From a virus, in the IMG/VR virus record IMGVR_UViG_3300020312_000702, positions 1 through 41,372 of that record: a DNA stretch of 41,372 nt, one strand, 5' to 3'. A program made the translations under genes and the position numbers. Under the pieces are notes generated by a model. That model made no database searches. It saw only the letters and a list, made by a program, of their open reading frames with translations, and was not told where the DNA came from. Shown here in pieces: positions 6,018 to 31,839 of this stretch (within the stretch, counting starts at the first letter, position 1; every line of letters begins with the position of its first letter).

Positions 6018-8594
6018 GTGACAACAGCATCACCAGATAGACAACCAAACTTCAACTTAGTGGCTGGTGAGATAAACCTCGACCTAATCCCACCTGACTG
6101 GGCTTTAACACCACTTAGAGATAAAAAAGCTTATATAGCTGGATGGCCGTCACAACCATACACGATTGATCAGATCAGACGTGAGTTGGAAGATGGAAAA
6201 GCAACTGGCATAGGTTTAATAACGGGCCAATGGTCTAATGAAGGAGGCTTGATTTGGGTAGATATTGATGGTCCAGAAGCCATTCCAGAACTAGAAAAAT
6301 TGGGTGGTGGAAAACTGTCTGAAATCTTCCCTCCAACACTCACTATTTCGTCAGGGAAAAAAGATAGACAGAGAATGCTTTTTAGCATTCCAACATCAAA
6401 AATTGGATTGCTCCCAGATAAAGCAACCATAAAAATTGGTATTTCTTCTTTCGAGATCTTATTTAGATCAAGACAAGGAGCAATAATGGGAAGTCATCCT
6501 GAAACAGAAGGATATTTCACCACAGAGCACGGAAATTTTGAGTACGCAAAAAATCCACCAGAAATGCCTGAGTGGTTATATTCAGAAATTGAAAAAGCTT
6601 ATCCCTCTAACAAATACAAAAAGAAACCTAAGACTGGGATACTAACTCAACAAATTAATCTCTCCTATGAAGAAGGTTCTGAATTTCAAAGAAAAGAACT
6701 ACTTAGCGAAGTAAAGGTATATCTAGAATTTTTAAATGAAGATAGAGCAATTGATTATGAAGAGTGGATAACCATTGGTATGTCCCTCCATCAGATTGAT
6801 GATTGTCTATTAGAAGAATGGATTAAATGGTCTGAGCAAGCACCTAACTTCCAAGAGGGTGTATGTGAAAGTAAATGGAATACATTTGAGCGCTTACCTG
6901 GTGGTCCTGCTCCAGAAGGAAGCTGTGGTCTTCATACAATAAAAGCTAAGGCCAAGGAAGATGGATATGTAGATCTAAATGGCTTCGTCGTCGATTCAAA
7001 AGAGGTAATGGCAGAGAAAGCAAAAAAACTTTTTAAAAATGACAAGACAGAAATTAACGCCGATACAATACAAGGTGCTTTGCAAGCAATTATGGGAGCA
7101 CCAGAAAAAGAAATAAAAAAAGAAATAGCTCAGAAAATCGAAAAAAAAGGAAGACCAAAGACACCACCAGCTTCAGAACTAGCAGAAGTTGTAACTCAAT
7201 TAGTTATTGAATGCGGTTGGAGATATGATCCTAAATTCGATACTTTTATGTTCTATCAAAGAACTAAAGGTACATGGAGAAGGGAAGAATATAAACATGA
7301 ATACCGACACTTCGTACAAGACCTCTTTTTAAGGGAAAATATTCCTACGCCAGGTGGTTTCACATCTCATTTGATTTCAGATGTTGTCAACCTAACTCAG
7401 GCTTACATCACTCACACCTACTGGGATGATGACCCTGATCGACTTGCTTTTAATAATGGAGTTTTAGAAATAAGTACAGGAGAATTTTTAGACCATGATC
7501 CCGAAAACTTTTTAACTTGGGGTCTTGATTTTGATTATGACTCTGAAGCTGATCCTGGACCAATTATTAGATGGCTAACAAGAACACAATACGGCGATGA
7601 GCAGCGTGTACAAGTCCTCAGAGCATGGCTAAAAGCATGTTTGGTAGGACAAGGTCATGAGCTACAAAGATTCCTTGAGGTAATCGGTCCAGGGGGTCGT
7701 GGTAAGTCTACTTTTGCAAACCTATGCTGTGCTTTAGTTGGTCATGGAAACTATGCAAGTACAACATTAAATCAACTAGAACAGAGTCGATTTGAAATTG
7801 CTTCTATTAAAGGAAAAAGACTTACCCTCATCAATGATTCAGAAAGATATGGTGGTTCAGCTCAGATCTTTAAGGCACTTACTGGAGGAGACAACCTTCG
7901 CTTTGAAGAAAAAAATAAAAATGTAGGTGAACCATTTGTTTACACAGGAATGGTTATGGTCTGTGCTAATGAACCAATTCAAACTACTGACAACACCTCT
8001 GGACTCACAAGACGTCGTCTAACCGTGGAGTTTAACCGCCCATTATGGGATAAAAATTCCGAAGCAAAAGAGATGATAAAACTTGAGAACGGAATAGTAA
8101 AGGGCTTATGGAAGGATTATTTACCTGGCTTAGTTAACTGGGTATTGAAGATGACTACTCAAGAAATGCGTGAATATCTATTAGATACATACGAAAAAGT
8201 ACCTTCACTCAAAAAAGTTAGAAATGAAATCCTTCTTAATAGTAATAACTTAGTGGAATGGCTCCAGTCGGAAGTGGTTCATGAGCCTAACAGCGTTGCC
8301 TCTGTAGGTAAGAAAATTCCTGCGGCTAAAGATGCTAAGGAAAGATATTGCAATAGCAATTTTCACCTGTATGCCAGTTATTGTTCCTACTGTGAGGATA
8401 CTGGGTCAAAACCAGTAGGTCAGAAACGTTTTATTGCACTTTTACTTGACTGTTGCAAAAACCAACTGGCACTAAAGGATATTTACCACTTCACTAAGCA
8501 AGGAAGACCCTATATTAAAGGTCTAGTTGTACGGAATTCCGATCAAAAACTAACAACATTACCAACAATACTGCCAGAAAATAAATTGGCATAG
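6018..8594 (+). CDS. Primase-polymerase / SF3 (D5-family) helicase
   Basis: This 858-residue, multidomain replication protein has the following parts. Residues about 20-195 resemble the AEP-type bifunctional primase/polymerase domain, with the metal-binding VDID at 81-84, a SSGKKDRQRMLF strand at 111-122 and FEILF near 145. Residues about 228-305 look like a PriCT-2 domain (EEWITIGMSLHQID, W-KWSEQ). A D5_N-type region follows (about 390-545), then the SF3 helicase: Walker A GPGGRGKST at 557-565, Walker B-like LTLINDSE at 602-609, sensor VMVCANEP near 646-653 and the arginine motif LTRRRL at 663-668. It would make primers and unwind DNA at the fork. The frame opens with GTG at 6018. It stands alone between two terminators, so it is probably its own transcription unit. 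Confidence 0.85.
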   Translation: MTTASPDRQPNFNLVAGEINLDLIPPDWALTPLRDKKAYIAGWPSQPYTIDQIRRELEDGKATGIGLITGQWSNEGGLIWVDIDGPEAIPELEKLGGGKLSEIFPPTLTISSGKKDRQRMLFSIPTSKIGLLPDKATIKIGISSFEILFRSRQGAIMGSHPETEGYFTTEHGNFEYAKNPPEMPEWLYSEIEKAYPSNKYKKKPKTGILTQQINLSYEEGSEFQRKELLSEVKVYLEFLNEDRAIDYEEWITIGMSLHQIDDCLLEEWIKWSEQAPNFQEGVCESKWNTFERLPGGPAPEGSCGLHTIKAKAKEDGYVDLNGFVVDSKEVMAEKAKKLFKNDKTEINADTIQGALQAIMGAPEKEIKKEIAQKIEKKGRPKTPPASELAEVVTQLVIECGWRYDPKFDTFMFYQRTKGTWRREEYKHEYRHFVQDLFLRENIPTPGGFTSHLISDVVNLTQAYITHTYWDDDPDRLAFNNGVLEISTGEFLDHDPENFLTWGLDFDYDSEADPGPIIRWLTRTQYGDEQRVQVLRAWLKACLVGQGHELQRFLEVIGPGGRGKSTFANLCCALVGHGNYASTTLNQLEQSRFEIASIKGKRLTLINDSERYGGSAQIFKALTGGDNLRFEEKNKNVGEPFVYTGMVMVCANEPIQTTDNTSGLTRRRLTVEFNRPLWDKNSEAKEMIKLENGIVKGLWKDYLPGLVNWVLKMTTQEMREYLLDTYEKVPSLKKVRNEILLNSNNLVEWLQSEVVHEPNSVASVGKKIPAAKDAKERYCNSNFHLYASYCSYCEDTGSKPVGQKRFIALLLDCCKNQLALKDIYHFTKQGRPYIKGLVVRNSDQKLTTLPTILPENKLA

Positions 8595-18728: not shown

Positions 18729-18776
18729 TTTTATTACTGTTTTTATAATATTAACATCGACAAATTAGTTACTAAA

Positions 18777-18941
18777 GTGACAACTTTCCCACATGGGACA
18801 ACGATTGAGACTCTAAATGACCGTGGTCATGTCTTTCATCGTGTTTGTGCTCCAGGAGGGGGTGTCTGTCGTTACGCCGATAACGAAGATATTGCTCAAG
18901 ATTTTGCAAATATCTACGAAGAATATTTTAAGCACAAGTAG
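18777..18941 (+). CDS. Small Gly/His/Cys protein with GTG start
   Basis: This 54-residue ORF begins with GTG at 18777 (in-frame ATT at 18750 would extend it by nine codons) and ends with TAG at 18939-18941. The protein is not low in complexity: HGTTIETLNDRGHVFHRVCA, then PGGGVCRYADNEDIAQDF and a helical end EEYFKHK. Two Cys, four His and a Gly-rich turn suggest a small metal-binding or ligand-binding module. No Shine-Dalgarno is seen. Its stop codon abuts the first GGTTAGGTA repeat. If real, it would be a small regulator or a peptide under control of the repeat region. Confidence 0.4.
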   Translation: MTTFPHGTTIETLNDRGHVFHRVCAPGGGVCRYADNEDIAQDFANIYEEYFKHK

Positions 18942-18989
18942 GGTTAGGTACTTGGGTGTAACATTTTATTTGACAGTCACATACCTACC
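18942..18989. repeat. Imperfect palindromic repeat, copy 1
   Basis: GGTTAGGTA (18942-18950) and TACCTACC (18982-18989) flank a spacer that includes TTGGGTGTAA and ACAGTCACA. The left half differs from copy 2 (19171-19212) at a single base over 20 bp, and 15 bp of the right half (18973-18987) are identical to copy 2. Confidence 0.7.
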
Positions 18990-19334
18990 CCTACAACCTA
19001 AATTCTAAAAAATTCTAGTAAAAATACTCAAGATCACCTTTAAAAACAGGTAGGGGTAACGCCTTTTGAAACTACATTTTTCTTGAAACTCTTTTTATAG
19101 TAATGGATTAAGAGTGAACACCCAAAACCTGAAAAAAAATGGCCTTTTTCTTTAGGTACGTATAGGCGAGGGTTAGGTACATGGGTGTAATATTACAGTC
19201 ACATACCTAACCTCCAGTTCTCTAAAAGTAAATAAAAGAGGCAAAAAAAATCGGTATTTGGGTGTTGACTCATTGCCATTGCACCGCAAGAGGTTTAAGG
19301 TAATAGTCTCTGAACCCATACTGAAAAGACAAAT
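18990..19334. promoter_or_regulatory. Gene-free intergenic region with repeated GGGTGT motifs
   Basis: No convincing ORF. The 13-mer GGTA(C/T)(T/A)TGGGTGT occurs at 18947-18959, 19176-19188 and 19253-19265 in one orientation, and a close inverted copy (ACACCCAAAACC) at 19118-19129. TTGAAACT is repeated at 19066 and 19083. A TTGACT at 19265-19270 overlaps the third 13-mer but no good -10 follows. The layout is that of an operator cluster or an iteron-type origin for the divergent genes at 18728 and 19335. Confidence 0.5.
19171..19212. repeat. 42-bp palindrome, copy 2
   Basis: An imperfect palindrome in which 17 of 21 positions pair. Outer arms GGTTAGGTA and TACCTAACC are perfect; the centre is AATATT. 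It is the best-formed member of the repeat set. Confidence 0.75.
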
Positions 19335-20441
19335 ATGGATACTTTTCTCTATGAAGAGCTAACGGCTACAGATAAGGTTTTATTTGCTAAAGCTTTTCAA
19401 ATAGCCATCCAGATATGGGGTAAAAACAACTGTTGGTGTATGAAAAAAGCCAGTAATAATATTTTTCAGGGTTTTACAACAAGTAAAAAGGTCAGGCTTT
19501 CTTATAGAGGAAGAGATGCACGTCCTTTATTACTTTCAATGGCTGGATATAATAGTGATTCAACTAATAACGTTATTGTTCGACGTGCATGTTGTAATTC
19601 TCCATACTGTTTAAATCCTTCTCATTATTATTGGGGAAGCAGACAAGATGTCGCTTATGAAAATATAAAAAGGAACAAAATAACACTAAATAAAGACTTA
19701 ATAACTAAGTTGAGAAAGGAAAATACAGCGGGTCTTAATAGTAATAAACTTTCAAAAAAATATAAACTTCCCTATCACACAGTTAGAAGAATTTGTAATA
19801 ACGAAATATATGAATCAGTCGAAAATGAAAAAGAAAACAATGAAATTTGGCAAAATATAGAGTCTATTTGTGAAAGATTAATAATGGACTATCCTGAAGA
19901 AGCAAAGGATTTTAATTTAAAATATTACGTGACTAAAGAACTCGAATGCCCTTGGCATCAAAAAGGTACAAAAACCCATAAAGGTAATTTCGGTTTAATG
20001 GGGGAATGTCTTGACTGTATGAAGGAAATAAAAAATGGAAGAGCTGCTGTAGATGTTAGAAATTTTGATTTTCGTTGGTATTGGCAGGTAAAAAGCTTTT
20101 GGGACAAGGTTGATATAAAAGGTGATGATGAATGTTGGTCTTGGCTAGGACCTACAAAGAAGAACGGATCAGAGTCTGTTGCATACTTTCCTTCCCCTTT
20201 CCACGCATCAAATACGCAATCAGCCCCAAGGGTGGCATTTTGGCTTAGTAGAGGCTATACAGGTAAATACAGAGTCTTTACAAAGAAAACATGTAAACCC
20301 TTCTGTTGTAATCCTCTGCACCTTACAATTAAGGACTTAAAGGATTGCGATCCACCTACAAAGCTACAATGCATCAAAGTAACTCATGACAACATCATCG
20401 AACATTACAAAAAGAGAGAAGGTAACACTCAAAAAGAGTGA
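19335..20441 (+). CDS. Double HNH-like zinc-loop protein with central HTH, nuclease-dead candidate
   Basis: This 368-residue protein contains two zinc-loop segments of the His-Me finger (HNH homing endonuclease) type: CCNSPYCLNPSHYYWGSRQD (residues 86-105) followed by Asn110, and CKPFCCNPLHLTIKDLKD (320-337), the second preceded by ECWSWLGPTKKNG and APRVAFWLSRG, as in phage HNH proteins. Between them are a helix-turn-helix (about 118-158, LSKKYKLPYHTVRRI) and a Cys4-type finger (Cys205/His208, Cys225/Cys228). In active relatives a catalytic His lies two residues before the first Cys of the loop; here these positions are Ala85 or Arg84 and Lys318. It therefore looks like a DNA-binding protein derived from an endonuclease. 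It faces the palindromic repeats just upstream, which could be its sites. RBS AAAAGAC is weak. Confidence 0.65.
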   Translation: MDTFLYEELTATDKVLFAKAFQIAIQIWGKNNCWCMKKASNNIFQGFTTSKKVRLSYRGRDARPLLLSMAGYNSDSTNNVIVRRACCNSPYCLNPSHYYWGSRQDVAYENIKRNKITLNKDLITKLRKENTAGLNSNKLSKKYKLPYHTVRRICNNEIYESVENEKENNEIWQNIESICERLIMDYPEEAKDFNLKYYVTKELECPWHQKGTKTHKGNFGLMGECLDCMKEIKNGRAAVDVRNFDFRWYWQVKSFWDKVDIKGDDECWSWLGPTKKNGSESVAYFPSPFHASNTQSAPRVAFWLSRGYTGKYRVFTKKTCKPFCCNPLHLTIKDLKDCDPPTKLQCIKVTHDNIIEHYKKREGNTQKE

Positions 20442-30056: not shown

Positions 30057-30566
30057 ATGTGGAAATTATTGCCATTATTGTTTATATTTAATGCTCCAAT
30101 TGCTCGTGCTGGCTTGGTGCATACGCTGTCTACATCAACACAACTTCAAGTTAATGGTGCAGCAACGGTTTCAGAAAGAATTGGAAGCACCTACACCGTA
30201 TCTGGTACAAACATCAAAGTTGGTACAGGAAACAGCGACGTGTTTGGAGGTTTAACATCTGGTTCAGCTACAGCCGCAGCGACGATGAAGGCTGGTACAT
30301 ACGATATCAATACGGCTGGCTCGGCATTTTCGTTCTCAGAAAGTTGGCTCCAGGGTGACGCTGTACCTGCAATAGGATCGGGCGTTGACGTCACCAGTGG
30401 TGTTGTGGCTGATATGCCAGCATTTGGTGAGACGACAACCCAATCTGGAGGTGTTGCTGGCACATTGGCAGGTACTATTTTGAGTTCTGGAGTTATGACG
30501 ATAACCGCTGGAGGCGCAGGTACAAGTGCAACGGGTCAATTCGTTAGTACAATTTCTGTAGACTAG
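30057..30566 (+). CDS. Secreted cyanomyovirus-type protein 1
   Basis: This 169-residue protein has a signal peptide (residues 1-18, hydrophobic core LLPLLFIFNAPIARA with ARA before cleavage). The mature part is Gly/Ser/Thr/Ala-rich beta sequence: TYTVSGTNIKV, AGTYDINTAGSAFSFSESW, LQGDAVPA and the end TAGGAGTSATGQFVSTISV. A gene with the same order (GLVH, YTVSGTN, FGGLT, AFSFSxSxxQGDALP, TAGGAGTSAxGQ) is, as I recall, widespread in T4-like cyanomyoviruses, beside two more secreted proteins as here. Its role is unknown; a virion surface or periplasmic protein is likely. The start codon region lacks an obvious Shine-Dalgarno. Confidence 0.65.
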   Translation: MWKLLPLLFIFNAPIARAGLVHTLSTSTQLQVNGAATVSERIGSTYTVSGTNIKVGTGNSDVFGGLTSGSATAAATMKAGTYDINTAGSAFSFSESWLQGDAVPAIGSGVDVTSGVVADMPAFGETTTQSGGVAGTLAGTILSSGVMTITAGGAGTSATGQFVSTISVD

Positions 30567-30568
30567 TC

Positions 30569-30994
30569 ATGAAGCGGCTTTTAGGGCTGTTTTTATTATT
30601 TCCAACGGCTGTAAATGCAGTTCCCGTGGTCCCAAATTTCCAGTCTGGAAGTATGACTAGCCACACTGAGACGACCACAAAAGTTACGGAGGTCATAAAT
30701 TCGATAGACTATCAAACTGGATGGGAATATACAGTCACAGGAACAAATATAAAGGCTGATGGTGCTACGCTATTACCGCCATCAACTTCAGTTAGTAATA
30801 CGATGGATGGCGTGACGACAACTTGGAGTTCGTTAGATGCAAATAATGTTCCTAACTTCTCCATAAAGAACCCAGACCAATCATGGCAATTCACCACAAC
30901 CCTATCTCAACCAGGGATGGTCAATCAAACCATAATAAATCGCACAACCGACATGACGAGTGTGACAGACACGGTTTCAACGTTCAGCCAATAA
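30569..30994 (+). CDS. Secreted cyanomyovirus-type protein 2
   Basis: This 141-residue protein has a signal peptide (1-17, LLGLFLLFPTAVNA) followed by VPVVPNFQSGSMTSHTETTT. A Thr/Ser-rich mature part contains YQTGWEYTVTGTNI, NTMDGVTTTWSSLDANNVPN and WQFTTTLSQPGMV, ending RTTDMTSVTDTVSTFSQ. The start PNF-QGSMTS, the motif TGWEYTxTGTN and the end LSVFSQ-like are what I recall from the second gene of the T4-like cyanomyovirus trio. It is coupled: its start is two bases after the stop of gene 1, and its stop overlaps the next start. Confidence 0.65.
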   Translation: MKRLLGLFLLFPTAVNAVPVVPNFQSGSMTSHTETTTKVTEVINSIDYQTGWEYTVTGTNIKADGATLLPPSTSVSNTMDGVTTTWSSLDANNVPNFSIKNPDQSWQFTTTLSQPGMVNQTIINRTTDMTSVTDTVSTFSQ

Positions 30995-31839
30995 AGTATC
31001 TATTAATACTACTATTAGGAGCTAATAATTTCTTATATACCTCAAAAGCAGAGACAGTAGGAGGTGTATCGGCTACTGCCAATCCCGTTGCTAATTCATC
31101 TGGCAGTGTAACGAATCAAGCAATTCAGGTTCTTCAAGGTCCATACATAACTAATACTTATGGTGGAGGTGTGTCATGTCAAGGACCTACGCTCAATTTC
31201 ACCCCTTTCTTGACTGGTCTACATTCTTTTAAAACGCCATACGAAGCTTACTATAACGATCCTGTTTATGATACGTCTACAGATGAGGATGGTAATCTAG
31301 CAAACCCTGGAGAAATTCTTTACTATATGCCTACAAGAACAGGTCAGAAACAAAATAGTAACGTTAGTTTAGGTTTATCTGCTACCTTATCTATACCACT
31401 TGATAGACGTTTACAGAAAGGATGTCTTAGAGCCGCTACAACACAAACAGATTTGAATCAACAAATACTAGCTAATAAACGTTTAGATTTTGAAATGGCA
31501 AGGCTAAAACACTGTGGTGAACAAACAAAATTAGGTGTAACCTTCCATCCGAAGTCACCTTATGCCTCAATTTGTGCCGATATTATCGTTCAGAATGTAA
31601 ACGTTATTCAACAACATAAACATACTATTTCTTCAGAGCAGTCCTCAAAGCCCGTATCGCCTGATTCCGATCTCTCTGAGCAATCATCCGTTCCCGCAGA
31701 GACTCAATCTTCGGAGGCTTCCCTCTCAACTTCTGAAGCTTCTTCATTAAAGTCTTTATCGTCGGCTTTATCACCTTCAGAATCAAATCCGCTAGGGGTT
31801 TGGCAAGTAGGGCGGATGAAGTCGCCACAACAGCAATAG
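30991..31839 (+). CDS. Secreted cyanomyovirus-type protein 3, AUA start and antisense tail
   Basis: Its frame has no ATG, GTG or TTG that would give an N-terminal signal peptide. An ATA at 30991 overlaps the TAA of the preceding gene (ATAA, mimicking the common ATGA overlap) and would begin a textbook signal peptide (KYLLILLLGANNFLYTSKA). The mature part contains GSVTNQAIQVLQGPYITNTY, GGGVSCQGPT, NPGEILYYMPTRTGQK, and LDFEMARLKHCGEQ, matching the third gene of the cyanomyovirus trio from memory. After HKHTIS (about residue 213) a Ser/Pro/Glu-rich tail of some 70 residues is read opposite the 3' end of the gene at 31625; relatives are expected to end there. An in-frame ATG at 30883 exists but lies inside gene 2. 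Confidence 0.6.
   Translation: MKYLLILLLGANNFLYTSKAETVGGVSATANPVANSSGSVTNQAIQVLQGPYITNTYGGGVSCQGPTLNFTPFLTGLHSFKTPYEAYYNDPVYDTSTDEDGNLANPGEILYYMPTRTGQKQNSNVSLGLSATLSIPLDRRLQKGCLRAATTQTDLNQQILANKRLDFEMARLKHCGEQTKLGVTFHPKSPYASICADIIVQNVNVIQQHKHTISSEQSSKPVSPDSDLSEQSSVPAETQSSEASLSTSEASSLKSLSSALSPSESNPLGVWQVGRMKSPQQQ

Follow-up and report, generated by a model that had tools for sequence, protein, structure and literature searches.

The DNA analysed here, in its whole length called the window, is a virus record of 41,372 bases from IMG/VR. It represents part of the genome of a marine phage related to cyanophage S-EIV1. Its primase-helicase is 34% identical to the counterpart of Synechococcus phage S-EIV1 at 98% coverage, and the terminase-like protein of near-complete relatives shares 65% identity with that of S-EIV1. 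Between a leftward operon and the rightward operon of a gene that starts at 19335 lies an array of repeated sites, S1 to S6 (Table 1). The gene order around this array is common to four long relatives, i.e., G019 (79.6 kb), G020 (81.0 kb, a complete genome with a 94-bp end repeat), G005 (87 kb) and G021 (67 kb).

Table 1. Features of the array and its flanks, in window coordinates
Feature	Position	Strand	Evidence or remark
AT-rich element CGATGTTAATATTATAA	18743..18759	-	30-45 nt upstream of leftward gene (ends 18728); likely promoter, possibly bidirectional
Small conserved ORF, 54 aa, GGGVCRYA motif	18777..18941	+	sequences upstream of array in relatives
S1, outer left pair	18942..18961	+	site match; PWM score 25.0
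S2, outer left pair, inverted	18971..18990	-	site match; PWM score 29.4
Conserved middle motif GGTAGGGG, possibly degenerate site	19049..19056	+	conserved columns, alignment A1
S3, weak; left arm of outer inverted repeat GAGTGAACACCCAAA / TTTGGGTGTTGACTC	19112..19129	-	arms 93% complementary
A-tract (A8) within outer inverted repeat	19132..19139	+	conserved in A1
Degenerate site TAGGTACGTATAGG	19153..19166	+	A1; full-site score in L011
S4, central palindrome left arm	19171..19190	+	repeat analysis, site match, PWM
S5, central palindrome right arm	19193..19212	-	PWM score 32.7
Purine-rich AT block CTCTAAAAGTAAATAAAAGAGG	19220..19241	+	contains the region's most conserved 16-bp segment, mean column identity 0.89
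Second A-tract (A8)	19243..19250	+	sequence; varies among lineages
S6, weak, AAATCGGTATTTGGGTGTT	19248..19266	+	just upstream of -35; weight matrix
Predicted -35 TTGCCA, rightward promoter	19273..19278	+	comparative; in window alone not significant
Predicted -10 TAAGGT	19296..19301	+	17 bp past -35; TATACT or TATGCT in many relatives
368-aa putative DNA-binding protein, candidate array reader	19335..20441	+	PHROG matches, family alignment, model

The original prediction placed the repeats in a gene-free stretch. This holds only from 18941 onwards, where the stop codon of an unannotated 54-aa ORF abuts S1; leftward it fails. The ORF is found upstream of the array in many lineages and is missing from others, and it has no match in PHROG or Pfam. 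The conserved noncoding module itself reaches left beyond the ORF, to about 18743. There the AT-rich element CGATGTTAATATTATAA marks the left end of the module. The window, G019, G020 and G005 each have it once, in this place and with at most one mismatch. On the plus strand it contains TATAAT (18744-18749), and TAGCCA-16-TATAAT scores 10/12, which suggests a promoter function. The element is nearly self-complementary and may be a bidirectional promoter.

The repeats are as they had been described. The 42-bp palindrome at 19171-19212 pairs at 17 of 21 positions; it is the best gapless 42-bp palindrome of the whole window and the sole one with 17 pairs, and none of 20 shuffled windows contained any. 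When a gap of up to 49 between the arms is allowed, the single-sequence palindrome barely exceeds chance, hence it is the comparative evidence which carries the claim. The diverged copy comprises 26 nt, of which 24 are identical, at 18940 and 19169, i.e., 229 bp apart. Single copies of the 13-mer are located at 18947, 19176 and 19253, and a near-copy in inverted orientation at 19118. A better unit than the 13-mer is an asymmetric site of about 20 bp, GGTTAGGTAYWTGRSTGTAA (GGTTAGGTAnnTGASTGTAA). It has four matches, at 18942 and 19171 on the plus strand and at 18971 and 19193 on the minus strand, and none elsewhere in the 41 kb (expected 0.00). The four sites form two head-to-head pairs about 225 bp apart, and at least two weaker copies are present at 19112 and 19248.

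Conservation of the array among relatives

A protein search of IMG/VR yielded 21 relatives, one identical and the others with 59-66% identity. A profile search gave 147, of which 80 were kept, with identities down to 49%, and eight S-EIV1-type relatives were added to the comparison. Searching IMG/VR with the DNA pattern alone returned 27 and 39 stretches on about 45 contigs. The relatives are from IMG/VR; the phage collection contained neither a DNA match nor a tblastn match for the 19335 protein. A module of about 400 bp with the same architecture is present in every contig of the DNA-pattern search. The layout is retained in a large group of S-EIV1-related marine and freshwater viruses.

The search for the repeats over whole genomes, which the original prediction had proposed with recurrence at many unrelated places as its refutation, found a single cluster per genome in records of up to 87 kb, one of which has terminal repeats. 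All strong copies of the site lie within 270 bp. A phage-wide promoter motif was rejected on account of this single cluster. It also weighs against the idea that the sites are promoters of a phage-encoded RNA polymerase or sigma factor which fire both ways from the gap; such promoters should be scattered throughout the genome. Asymmetric sites of about 20 bp in both orientations between divergent operons are what one would look for in this case, yet the left arm and the right arm point towards one another, and of the window proteins inspected none was recognised as an RNA polymerase. We consider this explanation very unlikely.

Alignment A1 comprises 16 lineages. S5 is the best conserved site, and its ACAGTCA..TACCTAACC columns are invariant or nearly so in these 16 lineages. 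The alignment also conserves TTAG/TAGG of S4 and the outer inverted repeat TGAACACCCAA / TTTGGGTGTT, to which S3 and S6 belong; S3 has invariant columns and scores as a site in L052, L055 and L067. The degenerate site TAGGTACGTATAGG is located 21 bp, i.e., two helical turns, ahead of TAGGTA of S4. With S2 and S5 as the training set, a weight matrix places S1, S4, S6 and sometimes S3 at fixed positions. Wherever S6 scores, its distance to S5 is 54 bp; at the threshold used about 0.08 matches per 400 bp are expected. The spacings of S1 and S2 fall into two groups, 30-32 bp and 39-41 bp, which differ by one helical turn; the lineages compared are not independent of each other.

More divergent lineages keep the layout, and the sequence of their sites is altered in step on both arms. 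In altered sites such as GGGTTATTC, GGGTTTGGG and GGCCTAGGT the change is shared by the two arms. A first test of co-variation used hand-picked arms and was discarded for its bias; its successor had matched search freedom, the right arm being scanned against the 60 bp upstream; the arms of the divergent lineages had first been located by eye, before this test. Out of a score of 19 the match was 14.7 within the own lineage, 11.35 across lineages and 9.7 in shuffled windows, a result reached by none of 20,000 permutations. Concerted change of this kind is to be expected if one protein reads both arms, and it indicates a DNA-binding protein that is dimeric or multimeric.

Inverted repeats in a gene-free stretch also bring to mind a packaging site (pac or cos), a structured RNA or a leader. 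In G020 the terminase-like gene (29.3-30.8 kb) is, however, 24 kb away from the array (5.3 kb). On the 621-column alignment of the 16 lineages RNAalifold gave -7.3 kcal/mol, to which covariation contributed -0.05, and Rfam had no match. The lack of compensatory changes together with the Rfam result speaks against an RNA element, and packaging and RNA taken together are highly improbable.

Two observations were made elsewhere in the relatives. A near-site, TACGTAnnTGACTGTGA, occurs at G020:63580, G008:3128, G026:3995 and G003:58008; in G020 this is the start of a DNA polymerase gene, and it is either chance conservation of coding sequence or a second site. The other conserved noncoding stretch of G020, 55906-56427, consists of a terminator, a promoter and small ORFs and was rejected as a second array.

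The adjacent gene and its protein

Where the sequence beyond the array is long enough, the gene at 19335 comes next in 57 of 58 cases; the one exception, L053, is a truncated contig. Some contigs contribute several loci, which makes the number of independent genomes smaller than 58. On the left side both the neighbouring gene and the small ORF vary among lineages. The array tracks the right-hand gene only.

Residues 251-332 of the encoded protein match PHROG 1872 and 3593, which are endonuclease/HNH families, with E-values of 6e-10 and 3e-7; Pfam returned no HNH match. The protein is composed, in this order, of a degenerate HNH-like segment (C..S.YCLNP.HYYWGT), an HTH (KLSK.Y.LPYH.VRRIC), a Zn-ribbon-like CPWH...CLDC and a second degenerate HNH-like segment (C..FCCNP.HL), and these motifs are conserved in the family. 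Both HNH-like segments preserve the Cys/His framework and appear devoid of the first His when aligned manually with the HNH_3 consensus. The catalytic His appears lost in both segments of all aligned members, and the protein may be a DNA binder without nuclease activity.

The weak HNH matches could mean that the palindrome is the homing target of a mobile HNH endonuclease gene or the scar left by its insertion. Yet the gene belongs to a family that is stable and syntenic, an empty site bearing the array was not seen among the relatives, the catalytic His is apparently gone, and there are multiple sites whose arms change in concert. We consider this explanation extremely improbable.

Position 150 in the recognition helix (VRRIC) is Val in 14 of 25 aligned lineages, all of which have TAGGT in the site. 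It is Ala or Thr in the remaining 11, and ten of these are without TAGGT, L176 being the exception. As the lineages are related and phylogeny was not controlled for, this correlation is supportive only. An AlphaFold model of the protein, with a modest mean pLDDT of 66, contains the HTH helices. A fold search of the PDB with this model returned only weak HTH look-alikes and no confident structural relative, and the sequence search of the PDB gave no match. From position, motifs and co-variation the 19335 protein appears to be the best candidate reader; the array comes with a named candidate protein. If the degenerate HNH protein is indeed the reader, a selfish nuclease fold would have taken on a core role in the phage, as regulator or initiator, and the sites would evolve in step with the protein.

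A proposed operator and a possible origin

The original prediction further stated that no standard promoter fully explains the repeats. This has to be qualified. Most lineages have a sigma-70-like promoter downstream of the array and 60-85 bp ahead of the start codon, with TTGCCA or TTGACA, usually 17 bp, and TANNNT. Examples are TTGACA-16-TACAAT in L128 and L130 and TTGCCA-17-TATACT in L112 and L126. Only in some lineages is it clearly above shuffled sequences. The window copy, TTGCCA-17-TAAGGT, is weak when taken alone; it scores 8/12, no better than shuffles.

Three readings had been offered, i.e., operator array, binding site of the 19335 protein and replication origin. The first two fit best and are probably one and the same thing, with the origin as their rival. 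We propose that the array is an autoregulatory multi-site operator which feeds the sigma-70-like promoter of the 19335 gene, and we put the probability of this at roughly one half. The 19335 protein would bind asymmetric sites of about 20 bp, in the head-to-head pairs S1/S2 and S4/S5 and at the weaker S3 and S6. Bound to S4, S5 and S6 beside the -35 region and to the distal pair S1/S2, it would set transcription of the HNH-protein operon. S1/S2 are probably joined to S4-S6 by a loop over about 225 bp, and the divergent leftward operon may be set by the bound protein as well. We infer the reader, the control of transcription, the sign of the effect and the looping alike.

As expected of an operator, repeated specific sites lie beside the promoter of a gene, albeit a promoter which is weak in the window itself. 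Other properties fit less well. At least six sites, the A-tracts and the purine-rich AT block exceed the needs of a simple operator and are reminiscent of an iteron origin. Confidence in the model of the protein is modest, and the nuclease-dead reading derives from the manual alignment described above.

Phage origins with iterons next to the initiator gene are well known. S1-S6 could be iterons of a phage replication origin, bound by an initiator which may also autoregulate. This initiator would be either the 19335 protein or the Prim-Pol/D5 primase-helicase encoded at a distance (6018-8594). The purine-rich AT block and the A-tracts would then be the place where the DNA unwinds, in the manner of lambda ori or of satellite phage P4. 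Repeated sites clustered at a single locus, one copy per genome, agree with this, as do inverted and direct iteron-like sites adjoining the most conserved AT block, which is kept even in S-EIV1-type phages. The genome is AT-rich, and a similar purine-rich AT block follows the palindrome in divergent lineages and in S-EIV1. Further, the primase-helicase possesses D5_N, PriCT_2 and Prim-Pol domains and a P4 match, and it resembles the P4 alpha type. Its gene, however, is 7-10 kb away from the array with other operons in between. Cumulative GC skew does not turn at the array in G019, G020 or G005; the nearly constant asymmetry is compatible with unidirectional replication, and such tests are limited by G+C content and codon effects. 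The position of a site on the -10/+1 region of the S-EIV1 gene suits a repressor. The NrS-1 primase recognition site was examined as a lead, and no link to the array was established. The elaborate array and its AT block keep the origin reading alive, and we entertain it tentatively. A combination of both is doubtful in our estimate: a nuclease-dead HNH-fold protein would be the sequence-specific replication initiator, or initiator and autorepressor, of a whole lineage of S-EIV1-like phages. It would read long bipartite sites set in helically phased inverted pairs, and the array would be origin and operator at once.

Known systems and S-EIV1

In lambda ori, the target of the O protein, direct-repeat iterons lie inside the initiator gene. 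The array shares with it a cluster of sites of about 19-20 bp which adjoins a purine-rich AT block and is present in a single copy per genome; it differs in having head-to-head pairs upstream of the gene and no skew signal. P4 ori/crr with its alpha primase-helicase likewise has two separated site clusters, and a P4-type D5 primase-helicase is encoded in the same phage here. The type I iterons of P4 are, however, short decamers, and no HNH/HTH gene is known to be tied to them. In the early-late switch of phi29, p4 and p6 sites are situated between divergent promoters. Inverted-repeat protein sites between rightward and leftward operons are common to both systems, whereas the proteins are unrelated and the present array tracks the right-hand gene only.

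A precedent for the proposed autoregulation is I-TevI of phage T4, which represses its own late promoter (PMC2988022). It, too, is an endonuclease-related multi-domain protein with a zinc finger, a long asymmetric site and an operator upstream of its own gene (PMC2988022). In contrast to the 19335 protein, I-TevI is a GIY-YIG enzyme, an active nuclease and intron-encoded, and it uses a single operator site without a paired array.

The closest comparison is S-EIV1 itself (KJ410740). Its homologous gene, 7027-7704, is in the same place, and the product is about 25% identical to the 19335 protein. Sites of the GTGGATATGTAAGATT type form an inverted pair upstream, and a third copy, AATCTTACATATCC, lies over the TATAAT and start region of the gene. 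This is where a repressor would sit, and it favours autoregulation. The S-EIV1 sites are TCTTACATATCC; the site cores compare as GTGGATATGTA versus GTGGATAGGTA. Differences exist: the S-EIV1 protein is shorter and is without the N-terminal HNH-like/HTH half, the sites are fewer, and their inner half is different. Few isolates of S-EIV1-like phages exist and almost nothing is known of their regulation. If the proposed operator is real, no other large noncoding control element found here for this group would be as well conserved as the array.

Two minor observations concern gene arrangement. In the S-EIV1-type relatives L092 and L093 (about 2420-2700) an extra HNH-like ORF is located between the gene and a palindromic stretch GTTACATCCCC / GGGGTGTAAT, as if a gene had been inserted into the operon. 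At 30057-31839 of the window, and at the counterparts in all relatives, two to three plus-strand genes with signal-peptide-like starts are embedded in the leftward structural region.
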